Source of the DNA: Myxococcota bacterium
GTDB lineage: Bacteria > Myxococcota_A > Polyangia > HGW-17
Reading direction: 5' to 3'
Assembly: GCA_018821305.1 (NCBI GenBank)
Contig: JAHJMN010000145.1
Location: 1-38,599, forward strand
Length of the DNA: 38,599 nucleotides
Shown here: positions 24,513 through 34,632 of the stretch, one piece after another
Position numbering within the stretch: the first letter of the stretch is position 1
Layout of the letters: the number at the start of each line of letters is the position of its first letter
Program-made: the position numbers and the translations under genes
Notes under the pieces: model-generated
Told to the model about the DNA's origin: nothing
Databases searched by the model: none
The model's input: only the letters and a program-made list of their open reading frames with translations

Positions 24513-27008
24513 TTATTTTTCCGAGCCGTTTGTCTGGTTGATGAGGTTCTTTTCAACGTATTCGCAGGCGGTTGAGTCGCGCATACCGCATGCTGTTATT
24601 GTGGCAAACGGAAAAATGTCTTCTGCTCCTTTCAGCCCTTTCAGTTTTTTATCAAGGTGTCTTTGGACCAGACTTAAGCAACTGGGCCCACTTCCGCCAC
24701 TGCATGCTTTCCGGGCCAGAGAAATGTATTTTTCTTTGTCCTGTTTTACAACTTTCGCTTCCCAGTAAATTTCGCCGAGTTCGGTACAACTCAGGAAATG
24801 ATTTTTATCACATCCTTTTTCAAAAAGAGAAACTTGCTCTTTTGTAAAGTTACGGTCTTTTTTAGAACGATTGAGTTGCTGCCAGCATGTCTGATAAAGG
24901 TTATTTTCACAGGGTTTTGCCAGAATCGTTGCTGATTTCAGCCCTTCATACTTAAAACCATCTCCAATCCAGGAGTCGAGAAGTGAACATGCTGCATCAT
25001 CAGATTTCTGGCAAAGCAAGTCAGCGGCGGGGGCGACTTCACTGCGGATAGTTTTATCTAAAATGCCTTCGGCGACTTTGATGCCACGGATGAGTTCATG
25101 ACACATTCCGATGTTTCCTTTGAGACACTGATCCCGGAAAGAAATGAATAGTCCTTTGTCATAATCGGGAAAAACAGGGACGTAAAGGTTCTCAGGAGTA
25201 TCTGCATTGTTTTTAAGGAGCAACCTGATGTTTTCTGCGGCTTTCGGTTCCTCATCAATGAGGGACTGATAGAATTTTGTCATCGATGTGTTTCCAGCCA
25301 CAGGGCATAAATACTCCGCTAAAGTCAGCGGTCCGAGGGTTTTTATGATTTTTTTAATATTATTTTTGTAACTGTTGTTAAGGGGATTATCTCCAAGACT
25401 TATGGAACAGGAGTAAAAGGATAAAAGTTGAGCCATCTGTTCGTAACTGGAAGGAAGCTCATTCTTTTCGTTCTTTGCGGAAGTTCGATTGAAAAATTTA
25501 TAAATATGCTTTCCATATATTGCAGCGAGGGCCGTATTGAATTGAGCATCAATGTAGCCTGGAAGTTTTTCACCATATGGGCGGGCACGGAAGAAATCCT
25601 CAAAATGGCCTGTGTATCCAGCTAATGCAAGGACTTTGCTGAAACTGTGTTGGGGTGGAACAAATTCCAGATAGTCGTCTTTTATAATACTTTCAATGGT
25701 TTGAGGAGGGAAATCCGGCCAGTTGAAGGCAATAATGCTTCGAAGTTTGGATTTTGTGCGCATGCAACTTGTGCCGGATTTAAGAATTTTTTCTATAATT
25801 CCGGACTTCCGGAATTCCGGTGTGTTAAGTTCATTTAAAACCAGTTTGCATAAGCCGAAGGTTGATTCTTCCGGTTTCTCGAGATTACTGAGGGCTTTTC
25901 TATCGTGGAAGTGGCAATTTTTAGCTATCAAAGCAAGCCATGATTTCTGCTGTTCAAAAGGAAATGTTTTGATCTTTTTAATTACTGCATCGTTTTCCGT
26001 TGTGTCTTTCTTTGCGAATTTTAAGAGGTTCTCATTGATGATAGAAAAGTCTACATTATTAAAATCCGGGGAAAATTCCCGGTAAAATTGTAAACGGCGC
26101 CGGGCATCATCACGTTTTTCGGCAATGCCCTTCTCTTTGTAAAGCATGAAGAGACCATTCCATCCATAGGGGCACCGGGGGTGCTTTGCCAGCCATTTTT
26201 CTGTCTTTGTCTTTAAACCATCCCAGTCTTTTTCGGCCATGGATCTTGACGCATCATAAACATAGCTTTTAGGAACATCGGGGTAATTCATGTAGAGAAC
26301 TTTACCTACTTCAAGAATAAGATCTGGATGTTGCAGGGATATTGCACCACTGTACACCAGTTCAAGGATTTCGCGATCGGAAGAAAAAGATTTTAAAACA
26401 TATTTTAAAATTCTTGCGAATTTCCGTTTGAGAGCGGCCATTTGCCCCGGGCTCATAACATTAAAAACACCTTTTCCGTAACTGCCAAGATTTAAAACAG
26501 CTTTTCCTTCATATTCAAACATTTCGATAGTAGTTTGAATACGCTTTTTCCATGCCTGACGATTCTGGGGCTGAGTACAAATTGTCTGATCATAGAGTCT
26601 TAATGCAACATTCCAGAAATGATCCCGTACGACCATGTCCCCCATATTAATCCAGTTTCCGTTCGAATCATTAATGAATCCGGCTATGAGTTTTTCCAGT
26701 TCCCTTGCTTGAATAGAATAGAGATTATCCTCCGTAGCATTGGGGTTTTTCTTTGCTCTATCCGTTGAAATGTTTTTCATCACACGATAAACAATTACAT
26801 CGAGACCAATTTCCCAGTCTTTTCTTTCCCGGTGTTCGGATAAATGACGTATCTTGCAGTACAGCATATGGGGACTGGAGGATATACTTTCCCCGGATTC
26901 AAGATCTTTATCAGCGGTAGTCTTGCTGCCGGTGTAATTACCCTGATTAACGCATGAAATTAAGAAAATGATGGATATTAAAGTATAAATTTTAATCGAT
27001 GTTTTCAC
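24513..27008 (-). CDS. Large lipoprotein with C-terminal Sel1/Hcp-like Cys-paired repeats
   Basis: The product has 831 residues from a GTG start at 27006-27008. GGAGGAG lies 4 nt before this GTG, and it gives a clean lipoprotein signal (ending IFLISC, Cys19). The ATG seven codons earlier would place the ribosome site inside the gene. The middle looks like a helical TPR-type solenoid (WLAKHPRCPYGWNGLFMLYK and similar). The last ~220 residues carry regularly spaced Cys pairs typical of Sel1/Helicobacter Hcp repeats: CLKGNIGMC, LLCQKSDDAAC, PCENNLYQTC, CDKNHFLSC, ACSGGSGPSC and ACGMRDSTAC. Each pair probably forms a disulfide within a helical hairpin in the periplasm. The partner is unknown. It is divergent from creD across a palindromic element. 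Confidence 0.85.
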   Translation of the reverse strand: MKTSIKIYTLISIIFLISCVNQGNYTGSKTTADKDLESGESISSSPHMLYCKIRHLSEHRERKDWEIGLDVIVYRVMKNISTDRAKKNPNATEDNLYSIQARELEKLIAGFINDSNGNWINMGDMVVRDHFWNVALRLYDQTICTQPQNRQAWKKRIQTTIEMFEYEGKAVLNLGSYGKGVFNVMSPGQMAALKRKFARILKYVLKSFSSDREILELVYSGAISLQHPDLILEVGKVLYMNYPDVPKSYVYDASRSMAEKDWDGLKTKTEKWLAKHPRCPYGWNGLFMLYKEKGIAEKRDDARRRLQFYREFSPDFNNVDFSIINENLLKFAKKDTTENDAVIKKIKTFPFEQQKSWLALIAKNCHFHDRKALSNLEKPEESTFGLCKLVLNELNTPEFRKSGIIEKILKSGTSCMRTKSKLRSIIAFNWPDFPPQTIESIIKDDYLEFVPPQHSFSKVLALAGYTGHFEDFFRARPYGEKLPGYIDAQFNTALAAIYGKHIYKFFNRTSAKNEKNELPSSYEQMAQLLSFYSCSISLGDNPLNNSYKNNIKKIIKTLGPLTLAEYLCPVAGNTSMTKFYQSLIDEEPKAAENIRLLLKNNADTPENLYVPVFPDYDKGLFISFRDQCLKGNIGMCHELIRGIKVAEGILDKTIRSEVAPAADLLCQKSDDAACSLLDSWIGDGFKYEGLKSATILAKPCENNLYQTCWQQLNRSKKDRNFTKEQVSLFEKGCDKNHFLSCTELGEIYWEAKVVKQDKEKYISLARKACSGGSGPSCLSLVQRHLDKKLKGLKGAEDIFPFATITACGMRDSTACEYVEKNLINQTNGSEK

Positions 27009-27110
27009 GGTCTCCTCCTCGCAGGACACTATTGTATTTTATTTACAGCGAAGTTCAAATAATTTAAACTGATTTTTATTAGTCTATGAATTTTTTTTGA
27101 GTAATACGTA

Positions 27111-29234: not shown

Positions 29235-31655
29235 TTAAAACGGGAGGGGGATTTTCCCGGATAATATGGGTCCGGCATAATCAGAAATCTTTACACGGCC
29301 AAGGAGGGGAACCTTTGTGTAAACTTCTGAAAGCACCCACATTCCGGAATCTTCATCCCGTCCATTTTTCTGCCAGGCGAAAGTGACATCGGCATAACGA
29401 TTACCTTTTGCGACCCAGAATTGAGCATAAATATACTTTGAACGCCAGTGAAATGCCTGATCCAGAAGTCTCAAATCACCGCCGGCGCCATTCTTACGAT
29501 TTTTCGATTTATCCTCTGATGCGGCACCATCCATGACCATGTCCACAACCATTTTTGGTGTCAGCGCGGGAACCTGCACTTTGAATTTCTGAAGCATGCG
29601 GGCAAAATCAGCATTTGTCATCTTACCTAGTACTTTTCGGGCGAATTGTGGAGCCATAAACGCCTGAAGTGACTTGACATCCTTTCTTAAAACGGAGAAA
29701 TACATGTTCACACCCAGAGGGAGCATCTCAATCATCTGAAACATATCCCGATTGCGGAAGGCCTTTTTACGTTTGAGCATTTCGTAAATTTCCGGGGGAT
29801 AAGACATACCCAGCGTTCCATCCTTTCGCTGTCGGAAATATACCGTGGCACCAGCGGTTTTAAGGATGTAAAAACCATCTTTTACTTTTAGACTCATGGC
29901 ATCTTCTTTGGATGCAGACGGTTTTTCATTGTAACTCATGGAAATACCAGACGTACTGAGGCGCTTTTTAAACTCGGTAACTACTCCCCGTCCAAGGGCA
30001 GAAATGTGTTTGCCCTGAAGTCTGAACAATTCTTTTAAGCCATGCTCCATGCGTTTTCCAAGGAGATCATCAAAGGACGACGTAAGGTATGCAGCATCCA
30101 TGGTGTAGAGGCCTTCGGAGAATCTTAACAGGGAAGGTAAAAGCAGACTAAGGCGCAGAATATCTTCCTGATCTATTAAAACTGTATCAATTTTCCATTT
30201 TCCACGGACTCTTCTCAGGTGAATCTTGAAAAGTTGATTTTTAAGTTTGAATGCAACATCGAAGACATCACTGGTCTTTTTGATATTCTCAAGGGTGAAT
30301 GCCTGCGTACCATCGGGTTTTACCGTGGGGGATTTCCCGGGTGATCGGTTTTTGATAATTGAAACGAAAAGCTCTTCCAGTTGATCCAGGGGAAAATTTA
30401 TTTTGAGTGGAATGCTCTTTAAAAGAGGACTTGACCATCGATCCGTCAGGAGATTTGCCGAATTCCGGAGAAATTCGCTTCGACCTTCCGGGGTTGCCAG
30501 ATCCGTTTTGCGGAAATCAGACGCAGTGCTCAGGAAATCCAGGATTTCCTTTGAATTGAGGTAGATACCCTTGAAATTGACACTGAAACTATCGATTGTA
30601 CCATTATTTTTAAGGGCAGCTTTCAGGGCAAAGTCCTTAATACCGATGTTAAACGAAAGTAATTGGGGGGTAATGTCCCACTTCAAATGAGACAAAATTG
30701 CGGGATCGAATGAACCAGCTTTTTGGGGAATGTAATCCGCCGAAGGCTGTTTTCCTGATTTCTTCAGGCGGCGTGCAAAACGCAAAACCATATCACCGTA
30801 ATCTTTAACTTCCGGCCACATTTCCATAAAAGACTGCACCGATTTCTCCAGATTAGATGATTTTACTGAAGAAATCAGGTGTCCGATGCGCTGGAAAAAC
30901 GGGAGAATCTGTGTAAGAACCAGTTTCTGCCTGCCCTTAATATCGAGTTGAATATCGAGAAGTTTCCACTGATCTTCATCCCTTGACAGACGACAGGTGG
31001 CAGTGAAAAACCCTGAAGAAACAGTGATTGTCCCGCCTTTTTTATCCGTCGCAATATTGAATCCTGATAGTTTAAAAGGCATTTTGATGGGTTTTGACAG
31101 TTTATTACTGTGTGATTTTTCGTCAAAACCATCAAAAAAAGCAGCTAATACCGGTAATTCTGAAGCGAGAGTCTTTCCCGTGTGAGCCTCATTCACTTTG
31201 CCGTGCTTCAGATCCCACCAGACCATTTTAAATGCTATGAAAATTCCAAGAGCATCACGGTAGGAAATCCGCATTTTCGGTGCTTTGATTATCAGGTCGT
31301 CCACTTTCCAGTCCCCGTCAATTTTCACCAGCATGAATTTCATGCGGCTTTTCCCAGCTTTAACCGTGAGGACACCGCGATTTCCTTTTGTTTTAAAACT
31401 GTCATATCCCTGTTTGGGAGCTTTCCCCTTCCCCTTCCCCGTATTACCGAAGTTGTTGATCATTTTCACTTCCGCAGGAGTGAGGTAATTGAAAAGTTTT
31501 GCAAACTCCGGAGTGGAATTAGCCTGTATCTTCGAGATATCCCCCTTCATCATCGCTGGACCGTAGTCATTTTTAAGCATCGAAGTGACGGAGATTAGGG
31601 TACATCCACTGTAAAATATTGATATGAAGGAAATTATTAAAAATCGTGCAAACAT
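29235..31655 (-). CDS. Large lipoprotein with repeated NTF2/SnoaL-like modules
   Basis: The product has 806 residues. The start at 31653-31655 gives a lipoprotein signal (MFARFLIISFISIFYSGC, Cys18) behind a GGCGGAT-like site. A 24-residue upstream extension is unsupported. The sequence repeats a module. The N-terminal unit (about residues 28-140) has DISKIQANSTPEFAKLFNYL and VKIDGDWKVDDLII. Later units end with EDQWKLLDIQLDI and RVRGKWKIDTVLI. The C-terminal unit has DVKSLQAFMAPQFARKVL. 'Short helix, APxFA, then a W-K-hydrophobic-D strand' fits NTF2/SnoaL-like or Mce-like lipocalin folds, but I cannot assign a known family. It might bind lipids or small ligands in the periplasm; this is inference. 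It is downstream of ilvE and upstream of the DUF3783 gene. Confidence 0.8.
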   Translation of the reverse strand: MFARFLIISFISIFYSGCTLISVTSMLKNDYGPAMMKGDISKIQANSTPEFAKLFNYLTPAEVKMINNFGNTGKGKGKAPKQGYDSFKTKGNRGVLTVKAGKSRMKFMLVKIDGDWKVDDLIIKAPKMRISYRDALGIFIAFKMVWWDLKHGKVNEAHTGKTLASELPVLAAFFDGFDEKSHSNKLSKPIKMPFKLSGFNIATDKKGGTITVSSGFFTATCRLSRDEDQWKLLDIQLDIKGRQKLVLTQILPFFQRIGHLISSVKSSNLEKSVQSFMEMWPEVKDYGDMVLRFARRLKKSGKQPSADYIPQKAGSFDPAILSHLKWDITPQLLSFNIGIKDFALKAALKNNGTIDSFSVNFKGIYLNSKEILDFLSTASDFRKTDLATPEGRSEFLRNSANLLTDRWSSPLLKSIPLKINFPLDQLEELFVSIIKNRSPGKSPTVKPDGTQAFTLENIKKTSDVFDVAFKLKNQLFKIHLRRVRGKWKIDTVLIDQEDILRLSLLLPSLLRFSEGLYTMDAAYLTSSFDDLLGKRMEHGLKELFRLQGKHISALGRGVVTEFKKRLSTSGISMSYNEKPSASKEDAMSLKVKDGFYILKTAGATVYFRQRKDGTLGMSYPPEIYEMLKRKKAFRNRDMFQMIEMLPLGVNMYFSVLRKDVKSLQAFMAPQFARKVLGKMTNADFARMLQKFKVQVPALTPKMVVDMVMDGAASEDKSKNRKNGAGGDLRLLDQAFHWRSKYIYAQFWVAKGNRYADVTFAWQKNGRDEDSGMWVLSEVYTKVPLLGRVKISDYAGPILSGKIPLPF

Positions 31656-31764
31656 TATTATCCGCCTGTACCAGCTTGAACTTTGAGTTTCATGAAGACC
31701 GCTAATTTCAATCCGCTCTATTCTCATAACTTATTGACTCTATATTGCTTTTTTAGAATATATT

Positions 31765-33176: not shown

Positions 33177-33195
33177 TACTTATATCAGGTGAATT

Positions 33196-33984
33196 ATGTT
33201 TAAACTTCTTTTTTCTTTTGCGTTATTAACAGTAATAACAGGATGTTATGACCCTTATACCGGGGAAGTTCATCTGGGTCAGCCTAGAGCATACAATCAA
33301 ACGCAACCCGCAGCGCAGCCAGCAACCCAACCTGCAGCGCAGCCCGAGCCTCCGCCACCTCCGCCTAAGCCTGCGACGGTGAACCTTGAGCCGGGGCCCG
33401 CACCGCTTTCTACCCCTGCACCGAATTCTCCAGAGAAAAAGACATACACCAGCGGTGATATGCGTGTTACGGTTTATAAAAGTAATCTTCCGGATCAGAT
33501 GAGAGCAGCGGTACACGAAATGCGTTTCCGCAGCATGTCCACAACTTATTCAAAAAGTTTTGACCGATGGTCCATTTCATCCACGAAGGGCTCCGGCTCA
33601 CTTTATACGACGTACTCTAAAAGTTATGATAACTGGACAGTGCGCCTACCCGGGAAAACGGGATACATTCGCACGGTTTATTCGAACAGTTATGACCGCT
33701 TTAAATTCGGGTCAATTACCATGTCCACAACCTACTCAAAAAGCTGGGACCGATGGACTGTCCGCGGTAAGGGAACCACGCTGCAAGTTTCCACTACCTA
33801 CTCAAAAAGTTGGGATAACTGGAAAATCAGCAGCTCAAAAGGCAGTATGTACGTTACCACAAGGTACTCAAAAAGCTTCGATAACTGGAAAATAAACGAC
33901 AACATGCCCAAAGAGGACATGGAAGTTAAAATTGCAGCGATTTTTACCTGTATTTTCAGTTCCTCCATCCCCGTGAAAAAATAA
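33196..33984 (+). CDS. Lipoprotein with Pro/Gln linker and six 22-residue Tyr-Ser-Lys-Ser repeats
   Basis: The product has 262 residues. The lipoprotein signal MFKLLFSFALLTVITGC gives Cys17. Residues ~36-80 are a low-complexity Pro/Ala/Gln linker (QPAAQPATQPAAQP, then PPPPPPKP), long enough to span periplasm or peptidoglycan. From residue 114 comes a repeat of the form (T)YSKSxDxW(K/T)(I/V). Its Tyr residues fall at 118, 140, 162, 180, 202 and 224, a 22-residue period broken once by an 18-residue spacing. Six such rungs suggest a small beta-solenoid or beta-meander with stacked Tyr and Trp faces. I know no family with this motif. After residue 240 a short tail (MEVKIAAIFTCIF) closes the protein. 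A conserved binding surface is inference. Confidence 0.85.
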   Translation: MFKLLFSFALLTVITGCYDPYTGEVHLGQPRAYNQTQPAAQPATQPAAQPEPPPPPPKPATVNLEPGPAPLSTPAPNSPEKKTYTSGDMRVTVYKSNLPDQMRAAVHEMRFRSMSTTYSKSFDRWSISSTKGSGSLYTTYSKSYDNWTVRLPGKTGYIRTVYSNSYDRFKFGSITMSTTYSKSWDRWTVRGKGTTLQVSTTYSKSWDNWKISSSKGSMYVTTRYSKSFDNWKINDNMPKEDMEVKIAAIFTCIFSSSIPVKK

Positions 33985-34101: not shown

Positions 34102-34632
34102 ATGGCTGACTACATTAAAATTAAGACTCCTAAAGCAGCGGATGCAGTGAAATGCGGCCTGTATCGTACAACAAAAGAACTAGGGCCTGCCGTTCCTGCT
34201 GGAGTTCTTGTTTACTACCACAACCATGGCGATCCCGGCCCCGGTGTTTATCCTCCGGAAAAATGGATTAACAATAAAGCTGTATTTTCCATGCGGGGAA
34301 TCCCACTGAAAAACTTAAACGATGCTTTCACTCTGGAGCCCCTTCCTTCCGAAGGTTTTTACCGTGTCACAAAGGATTTCTACTGCTGTGAAAATCACTG
34401 CCGCCTCATTGTGCGCGACACCCTCGTTCAACTTGGTTACAACGGAAAAGGCGAGCCCATTGTTTTCATTCCCGAATGGAATGATGACGGCGTCAGTTTG
34501 CCCGAGAGAGGTACTTTACTTGACGAAGAACGTCTGAATTATCTCAAACCTCTCAAACTCACTTTCAATTTCTCAAACAAAAACCATTCTGATGCTCCCG
34601 AGCCCGTAGAAGAAGAGCCCGCCGAAGAATAA
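34102..34632 (+). CDS. Unrecognised soluble protein, 176 aa, paired with a radical SAM gene
   Basis: The product has 176 residues with no signal peptide. It starts MADYIKIKTPKAADAVKCGL after AAGG about 9 nt upstream. Notable features are YYHNHGDPGPGVYPPEKWIN, a compact Cys/His cluster (FYCCENHCRLIV, Cys-Cys-x3-Cys with an adjacent His) that could bind metal, and an acidic C-terminal tail (EPVEEEPAEE). No family is recognised. It ends 11 bp before the radical SAM gene on the same strand, so the pair is almost certainly one transcript. It may be that enzyme's partner or substrate; this is inference. Confidence 0.75.
   Translation: MADYIKIKTPKAADAVKCGLYRTTKELGPAVPAGVLVYYHNHGDPGPGVYPPEKWINNKAVFSMRGIPLKNLNDAFTLEPLPSEGFYRVTKDFYCCENHCRLIVRDTLVQLGYNGKGEPIVFIPEWNDDGVSLPERGTLLDEERLNYLKPLKLTFNFSNKNHSDAPEPVEEEPAEE

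Follow-up and report, generated by a model that had tools for sequence, protein, structure and literature searches.

A Myxococcota lipoprotein with six YSxS-aromatic-Asp-x-Trp repeats belongs to a family absent from the libraries searched and predicted to adopt a tubby-like, beta-flower fold

A stretch of 38,599 nucleotides from a Myxococcota bacterium (contig JAHJMN010000145.1; the whole stretch is referred to here as the window) contains an open frame at 33196-33981 on the plus strand for a 262-residue protein in which one short motif recurs six times. The questions raised by this locus are what kind of domain such a protein carries, and why its six motifs are so much alike.

The window gene and its repeats

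In translation the protein has a lipoprotein-type leader (MFKLLFSFALLTVITGC), a Pro/Gln/Ala linker and six repeats, which bears out the original prediction of a lipoprotein tied by a Pro/Gln linker to its membrane anchor. By the lipobox rule, Cys17 is presumably the site of lipidation, and a hydrophobic leader ending in [GS]C is present also in relatives L003, L004, L017-L020 and L022-L026. The linker is accepted as probably disordered on its composition alone, and the length of linker and spacer varies among relatives. The features of the locus are as follows.

33187-33192, plus strand: possible ribosome-binding site AGGTGA, just 5' of the start codon (sequence reading)
33196-33246, plus strand: signal peptide with lipobox ITGC, Cys17 being the presumed lipidated residue (translation)
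33247-33525, plus strand: low-complexity Pro/Gln/Ala linker and spacer, residues 18-110 (translation)
33526-33582, plus strand: predicted hairpin 1, repeat 1, Tyr118, residues 111-129 (AlphaFold2 domain-model strands 6-13 and 16-24)
33589-33648, plus strand: predicted hairpin 2, repeat 2, Tyr140, residues 132-151 (AlphaFold2 strands 27-35 and 38-46)
33655-33708, plus strand: predicted hairpin 3, repeat 3, Tyr162, an 18-residue unit with Phe for Trp, residues 154-171 (AlphaFold2 strands 49-57 and 60-66)
33715-33768, plus strand: predicted hairpin 4, repeat 4, Tyr180, residues 174-191 (AlphaFold2 strands 69-73 and 81-86)
33775-33834, plus strand: predicted hairpin 5, repeat 5, Tyr202, residues 194-213 (AlphaFold2 strands 89-95 and 103-108)
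33841-33903, plus strand: predicted hairpin 6, repeat 6, Tyr224, residues 216-236 (AlphaFold2 strands 111-119 and 122-131)
33919-33966, plus strand: C-terminal hydrophobic helix, the predicted filler of the barrel, residues 242-257 (AlphaFold2 helix 137-152, block pLDDT 93 and 92)

Matches to YSxS[WFY]Dx[WF] begin at residues 118, 140, 162, 180, 202 and 224, exactly at the six tyrosines originally listed, with spacings of 22, 22, 18, 22 and 22; when the residues of the domain were shuffled 20,000 times, no shuffle held more than one match (mean 0.0003 copies). The core had been called nearly invariant, which is true of the Asp (six of six) but only in part of the remainder: TYSKS is literally present in four of the six repeats, repeat 3 having VYSNS and repeat 6 RYSKS, and the final Trp is replaced by Phe in repeat 3. 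The DNA of the repeats differs too, the cores being 66% identical, so the repeats are not a fresh tandem duplication, as had been claimed. Codons at identical residues are the same in a fraction of 0.46 against 0.38 expected (z 2.2), and the same six units are found in distant relatives; on these grounds recent tandem duplication was rejected. On the minus strand the register that was read is full of stops, and of the frames of 90 residues or more on that strand at the gene, the longest (33226-33516) covers the leader and linker only. The hydrophobic segment that follows the last repeat (residues 242-257), which had gone unmentioned, is conserved and is central to the interpretation developed below.

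Profile searches gave no match of note for the window protein in Pfam, NCBIfam, PHROGs or PDB sequences, and none for the repeat itself. No profile of the beta-flower families PF21784, PF21785 or PF21786 matched it at E up to 10. Among the 35 members of the family alignment A3, none matched Bflower, Bflower_2, Bflower_3, LOR, Tub or Scramblase at E up to 0.1, and LOR (PF04525) gave no profile match in the window protein either. At the same threshold 17 Pfam families were hit by members of A3, none of them in more than three; PCC_BT (three of 35) was taken as chance, as were a weak alignment to the PDB sequence 8bgm 'Toxin' (E 0.026), a match to CylK (E 0.6), and NCBIfam TonB matches confined to the Pro-rich linker. 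The repeat had been put forward as possibly undescribed. Judged from these comparisons the sequence family is indeed separate and undescribed in the libraries searched (Pfam, NCBIfam, PHROG and PDB sequences), but its predicted architecture is already known (PMC10584680, 2023).

Predicted fold and its known relatives

A barrel of the Tubby type was proposed ahead of structure prediction, because twelve strands and a tail helix were found together in secreted proteins; the original expectation had been a stacked beta-solenoid. AlphaFold2 run with six sequences returned twelve strands and a helix at residues 137-152 of the domain (pLDDT 80.1, pTM 0.77), and with 35 sequences twelve strands, one hairpin per repeat, and the same C-terminal helix (pLDDT 84.8, pTM 0.85). 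Both models close the six hairpins into a 12-stranded barrel, and the solenoid was accordingly rejected; disorder of the domain was likewise ruled out by its mean pLDDT of 84.8.

When the 35-sequence model was compared with 997 chains using VIA-align, seven scored Z>=8 and the next best only 5.5. All seven are LOR/Tubby-type barrels or one designed protein: 1zxu (Z 10.4, 124 residues aligned at 3.1 A), the de novo designed ZZ4 (9lx4, Z 9.2), whose sequence is of course a designed one, and the Tubby/TULP1 structures 1i7e (9.1), 1c8z (8.8), 1s31 (8.8), 2fim (8.6) and 3c5n (8.6). Foldseek also placed 1zxu first (probability 1.00, TM 0.55/0.53), with E 0.011, and returned no match with E<=0.001, so the fold is assigned from the clear gap in Z and the full-length coverage rather than from a strong E-value. 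The 6-sequence model had ranked the porin KdgM first (4fqe, Z 9.6, 118 residues aligned at 2.7 A, with the helix left uncovered), followed by 1zxu (8.9), with Tubby/TULP1 at 7.8 and the membrane barrels 4e1t and 5g26 at 7.8 and 7.3. With the deeper model, and among the families that VIA-align lists, the porin, lipocalin and FABP matches of the first fold search fell to Z<=5.5 and were discarded. The closed barrel of twelve antiparallel strands that defines the Tubby-like and beta-flower architecture is thus predicted in both AlphaFold2 models, with Tubby and LOR structures as the best matches. The C-terminal helix is predicted with pLDDT of about 92, and the alignment to 1zxu, which extends through residue 152, would place it inside the barrel. 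On these models the fold is very probably tubby-like, that is, a six-fold beta-flower.

The name beta-flower was introduced in 2023 for hairpin barrels of four-, five- or six-fold symmetry; in that account, many have a C-terminal hydrophobic helix and some have lipoprotein signals, the resemblance to Tubby is pointed out, and three Pfam families, Bflower (PF21784), Bflower_2 (PF21785) and Bflower_3 (PF21786), are placed in clan CL0395 (PMC10584680). As described there, these families are, like the present one, bacterial and secreted or lipoprotein, with a symmetric ring of hairpins and a hydrophobic C-terminal helix, but they bear a semiconserved [DNEQ]xxG at the hairpin tips where the present 22-residue repeat has DxW (PMC10584680). 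Inspection by eye found no [DNEQ]xxG in the window domain, and the tip motif of the present family is [SDN]-[WYF]-D-x-W. A further trait ascribed to the Bflower families is a first strand circularly permuted with respect to Tubby, which alters the entry of the helix. Nearest in plan are the Bflower_2 members L058-L062, which likewise carry six repeats of uniform sequence and end in a hydrophobic segment rich in Phe. A search of Bacteroidota for the three families (90 genomes each) gave above-cut-off matches in 3, 5 and 3 genomes; comparison with hhalign, using profiles of 5, 2 and 3 rows that have little power, gave probabilities of 29.9 (the five Bflower_2 rows, through signal peptides only), 0.7 and 0.1. 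One Fluviicola genome (G428) contains both kinds of gene, Bflower_2 on contig C26 and the present family on C22.

The Tubby C-terminal domain and the LOR (LURP-one related) domain, also of clan CL0395, are likewise twelve-stranded barrels built around a hydrophobic C-terminal helix, and provide the best solved matches (1zxu and 1i7e), yet no sequence similarity to them was detected in the 35-member Pfam search. Tubby and LOR domains are cytosolic, whereas the present domain is secreted; Tubby domains bind phosphoinositides; and to our knowledge neither kind has obvious sequence repeats. An hhalign comparison with LOR, for which the profile had two rows only, gave a probability of 0.1, and the LOR domain was found in none of 140 genomes of the window's phylum and in two of 198 Bacteroidota, one of those two above cut-off.

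Distribution, origin and gene neighbourhood

In the window's own phylum the family is patchily distributed. Among 96 genomes near that of the window, itself included, three gave a match, all in the window's own family, where eight genomes were examined; and of 377 genomes drawn from the phylum two had a match, G002 and the genome of the window itself. Scanning named genomes gave four loci, in two Deltaproteobacteria MAGs, one uncultured Flavobacteriales bacterium and one Fluviicola. In the order to which Fluviicola belongs, Flavobacteriales, members occur in 50 of 399 genomes at E up to 0.001, counting a weak partial match in G795, and a wider Bacteroidota draw gave five of 395. These last include the degenerate L047-L049, in which six hairpins can be counted though the motif has faded; an alignment of L047-L049 with L046 and L040 joins A3 in hhalign at a probability of 99.9, L040 being also a row of A3. 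In viral contigs, none of 37 stretches with the pattern was confirmed as a member.

The repeat number is constant wherever the gene is complete. Each of the 58 complete members has its six anchor positions occupied, by Trp apart from isolated instances of Phe or Cys; the count is taken over 59 distinct genes, one of them cut by a contig end, represented by 71 aligned rows of which 12 were re-fetched. At the C terminus, members of A3 share a hydrophobic segment in which one Phe is invariant. A shortened third unit is common to the three Deltaproteobacteria proteins (window, L002 and L003), which indicates that the units have kept their places. In G001, a genome of the same genus, two contig ends fall within the repeats of the orthologue and divide it into L002 and L004, likely an assembly break caused by the repeats themselves. 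Elsewhere (L006:4944-6043) two members lie in tandem with overlapping stop and start, the second having strongly degenerate motifs but six Trp anchors; a gene for an ABC ATPase lies 3' of this pair, and the upstream genes resemble, by sight only, lpxD, lpxC/fabZ and lpxA. In an unrooted tree the window protein and its two Deltaproteobacteria relatives group with the Flavobacteriales protein L040 (support 96/93). This grouping, together with the patchy spread within the window's own phylum, suggests transfer from Bacteroidota into the window's lineage, as far as an unrooted tree can speak to direction.

The neighbours of the window gene are an aminotransferase (ilvE-like by sight), a 176-residue protein and a radical SAM protein; no ABC exporter was found among the 13 window proteins scanned. 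This arrangement is kept in G001 but was not seen in G002, and was judged uninformative as a guide to function. The 176-residue protein (window 34102-34632) has no Pfam match and adjoins a radical SAM gene in G001 too. Two frames of about 830 residues on the minus strand of the window (24513-27029 and 29235-31727) also have no Pfam match, at E up to 1e-5.

A different picture is presented by a group of Flavobacteriales with short proteins, in which the gene lies directly downstream of a gene for a 396-residue ABC-2 permease at 27 of 28 loci (26 of the 27 loci L073-L091 and L093-L100, the exception being L082, together with L035). Nine genomes of this group form one supported clade in the tree, and the other 19 were assigned to it by length and sequence. 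The permease gene is usually preceded by one for a 258-residue ABC ATPase; the order ATPase, permease, beta-flower gene is seen at L093:3033-5480 and 26 further loci. In all 26 pairs measured, permease and beta-flower genes are on one strand, and 21 of the 26 are spaced by -4 to 12 bases; in the outlier L100 the start is probably misplaced. Averaged pairwise over the 26 pairs, the beta-flowers are 0.49 identical and the permeases 0.72, so the two genes have stayed together through considerable divergence. PF12698 matches the permease, as does NF041647 below cut-off, and a further draw of 120 Flavobacteriales genomes contained the same permease in 27; there, none of the downstream frames examined matches the present family, and some loci have no such frame. 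Since the permease occurs in other Flavobacteriales without a family member downstream, the exporter does not need the beta-flower. A protein of about 456 residues is encoded nearby at eight of 36 loci; two of its copies were tested, and both have a T9SS sorting tail. Family members outside the short-protein group have other neighbours. That the beta-flower is the extracytoplasmic partner of the ABC-2 exporter in this one Flavobacteriales group is a serious possibility, though its chance is put at somewhat below even.

A uniform crown and what it may bind

AlphaFold2 places the turn of every hairpin at Y-S-K-S, between the two strands that a repeat contributes, and the motif thus caps the hairpin. 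The protein may accordingly be pictured as an envelope lipoprotein whose C-terminal 150 residues would close into a barrel, each repeat supplying one of the six beta-hairpins, around their own hydrophobic C-terminal helix, with YSxS-aromatic-Asp-x-Trp spanning each tip to give a crown of six chemically alike turns, each bearing an aromatic residue. Because strand A of repeat 1 heads away from the linker at the N terminus, the crown would be distal to the lipid anchor; from the order of the chain, the helix would enter at the opposite end. The crown could then act as a multivalent surface for binding on the side facing away from the membrane.

The core takes a distinct form in each protein, for example TYSKSWDRW, TFSEDWDNW-like forms, SYAENWDDW, TYTSEDWDYW or, in L040, SGSDAWKEW. 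Motif statistics were taken on 29 proteins, after L040 (register shift), L002 (partial) and the near copies L035, L023, L031 and L032 had been dropped from the 35. Over columns -8 to -1, the repeats of a single protein have a mutual identity of 0.633. The corresponding value was 0.421 (sd 0.008, highest 0.446) across 300 shuffles that swapped repeats between proteins with position kept and left the relatedness of the proteins uncorrected. Column -7 is identical at 0.92 within a protein and at 0.50 between proteins at the same position, and for column -4 the values are 0.87 and 0.54. Column W+2 does the opposite, at 0.18 within a protein and 0.34 at the same position across proteins, the behaviour to be expected of an interior residue adapted to its particular site. 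At identical residues, codon identity is 0.476 against 0.440 expected (2,629 pairs from the 29 proteins). Because the motifs are alike within each protein while their codons are nearly random, selection appears to maintain the uniformity of the ring; the conserved face is probably under selection, as was originally proposed, and the crown as a whole is probably under joint selection.

The main competing account of this uniformity is gene conversion or repeated duplication alone, with the crown having no joint function. Tandem repeats can convert, and old conversion followed by saturation of silent sites would fit the data too; moreover the codon excess reaches z 2.2 to 3.2 in four of the 29 proteins (window, L018, L024 and L029, the largest being L018 at 3.2), so that some gene conversion is possible. 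Residues agree, however, while codons are otherwise near random, and column W+2 keeps the identity of its position rather than that of its protein, from which it follows that units have not been overwritten whole. As a complete explanation, gene conversion is therefore doubtful. Joint selection explains the uniformity of the crown best, with the shuffle test read as one that does not correct for protein relatedness.

The motif has also changed along the family. On a tree built without the motif columns, the state of column -7 requires at least five changes and that of column -4 at least three; L018, with six Tyr and six Asn, lies inside a set of ten proteins with 100/99 support, the other nine of which are of the Phe type. 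The net charge of the six turns is +2 in the window protein and +3 in L003, with +5 over five turns in the partial L002, and reaches -19 in Flavobacteriales. With turn charges of +2 to +5 in some members and down to -19 in others, one common ligand for the family is doubtful. Within each of the Bflower_2 proteins L058-L062, too, the six repeats are uniform, and they differ between proteins; from this pattern, joint evolution of the petals may be general to beta-flowers.

By analogy with phosphoinositide binding by Tubby, lipid head groups or another envelope polymer can be suggested, tentatively, as the ligand. A rather different reading is of a surface domain that binds carbohydrate or calcium through its six repeats, with a small site at each SxDWD turn and with the ring lending avidity for a polymer such as a polysaccharide. 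Six alike turns bearing aromatic and acidic residues, with up to -19 net charge, would suit it, as would the several members that are lipoproteins and the loci that have a protein with a T9SS sorting tail nearby; but the six turns of the window protein, at +2, are not acidic, and no such site family was matched by the window protein in Pfam or NCBIfam, or by the 35 members in Pfam; this reading is rather unlikely. A small transmembrane outer-membrane beta-barrel, porin- or OmpX-like, with twelve strands and a plug helix, is very improbable: the leaders do direct family members to be secreted, and KdgM led and the invasin barrel 4e1t figured among the matches of the 6-sequence model, but with the deeper alignment the best membrane barrel is FadL (2r89) at Z 5.5, the window member has a lipoprotein anchor that a membrane barrel would not need, the strands, of 5-10 residues each, are short, and charged residues are frequent in the variable columns.

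The account of an envelope lipoprotein with a six-hairpin barrel and a crown that binds is, taken as a whole, the best explanation, and is held with some confidence though well short of certainty. In a bolder form, the six tips would evolve as one unit, all petals switching together (as in L018, uniformly Tyr and Asn within a Phe/Asp clade) and the charge of the ring being retuned from about +5 to -19 on a fixed barrel, and the ring would cap the ABC-2 exporter extracytoplasmically in one Flavobacteriales group; this full combination is distinctly unlikely. Later papers on the function of beta-flowers were not found in the literature searched.

The repeats of the window protein therefore represent a real and ancient family of known fold that is unlisted in the libraries searched, and the protein itself is most likely an envelope-anchored, ring-shaped, putative binding module. 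A sizeable family is thereby added to the bacterial side of the Tubby-like fold. Its six sequence repeats are in one-to-one register with six predicted hairpins, and this register gives direct sequence support to the view that such barrels arose by multiplication of one hairpin, an origin that Tubby itself scarcely reveals. A crown that is uniform and yet exchangeable makes the function of beta-flowers testable, and the exporter operon, combined with that interchangeable crown, offers a direct way into it.
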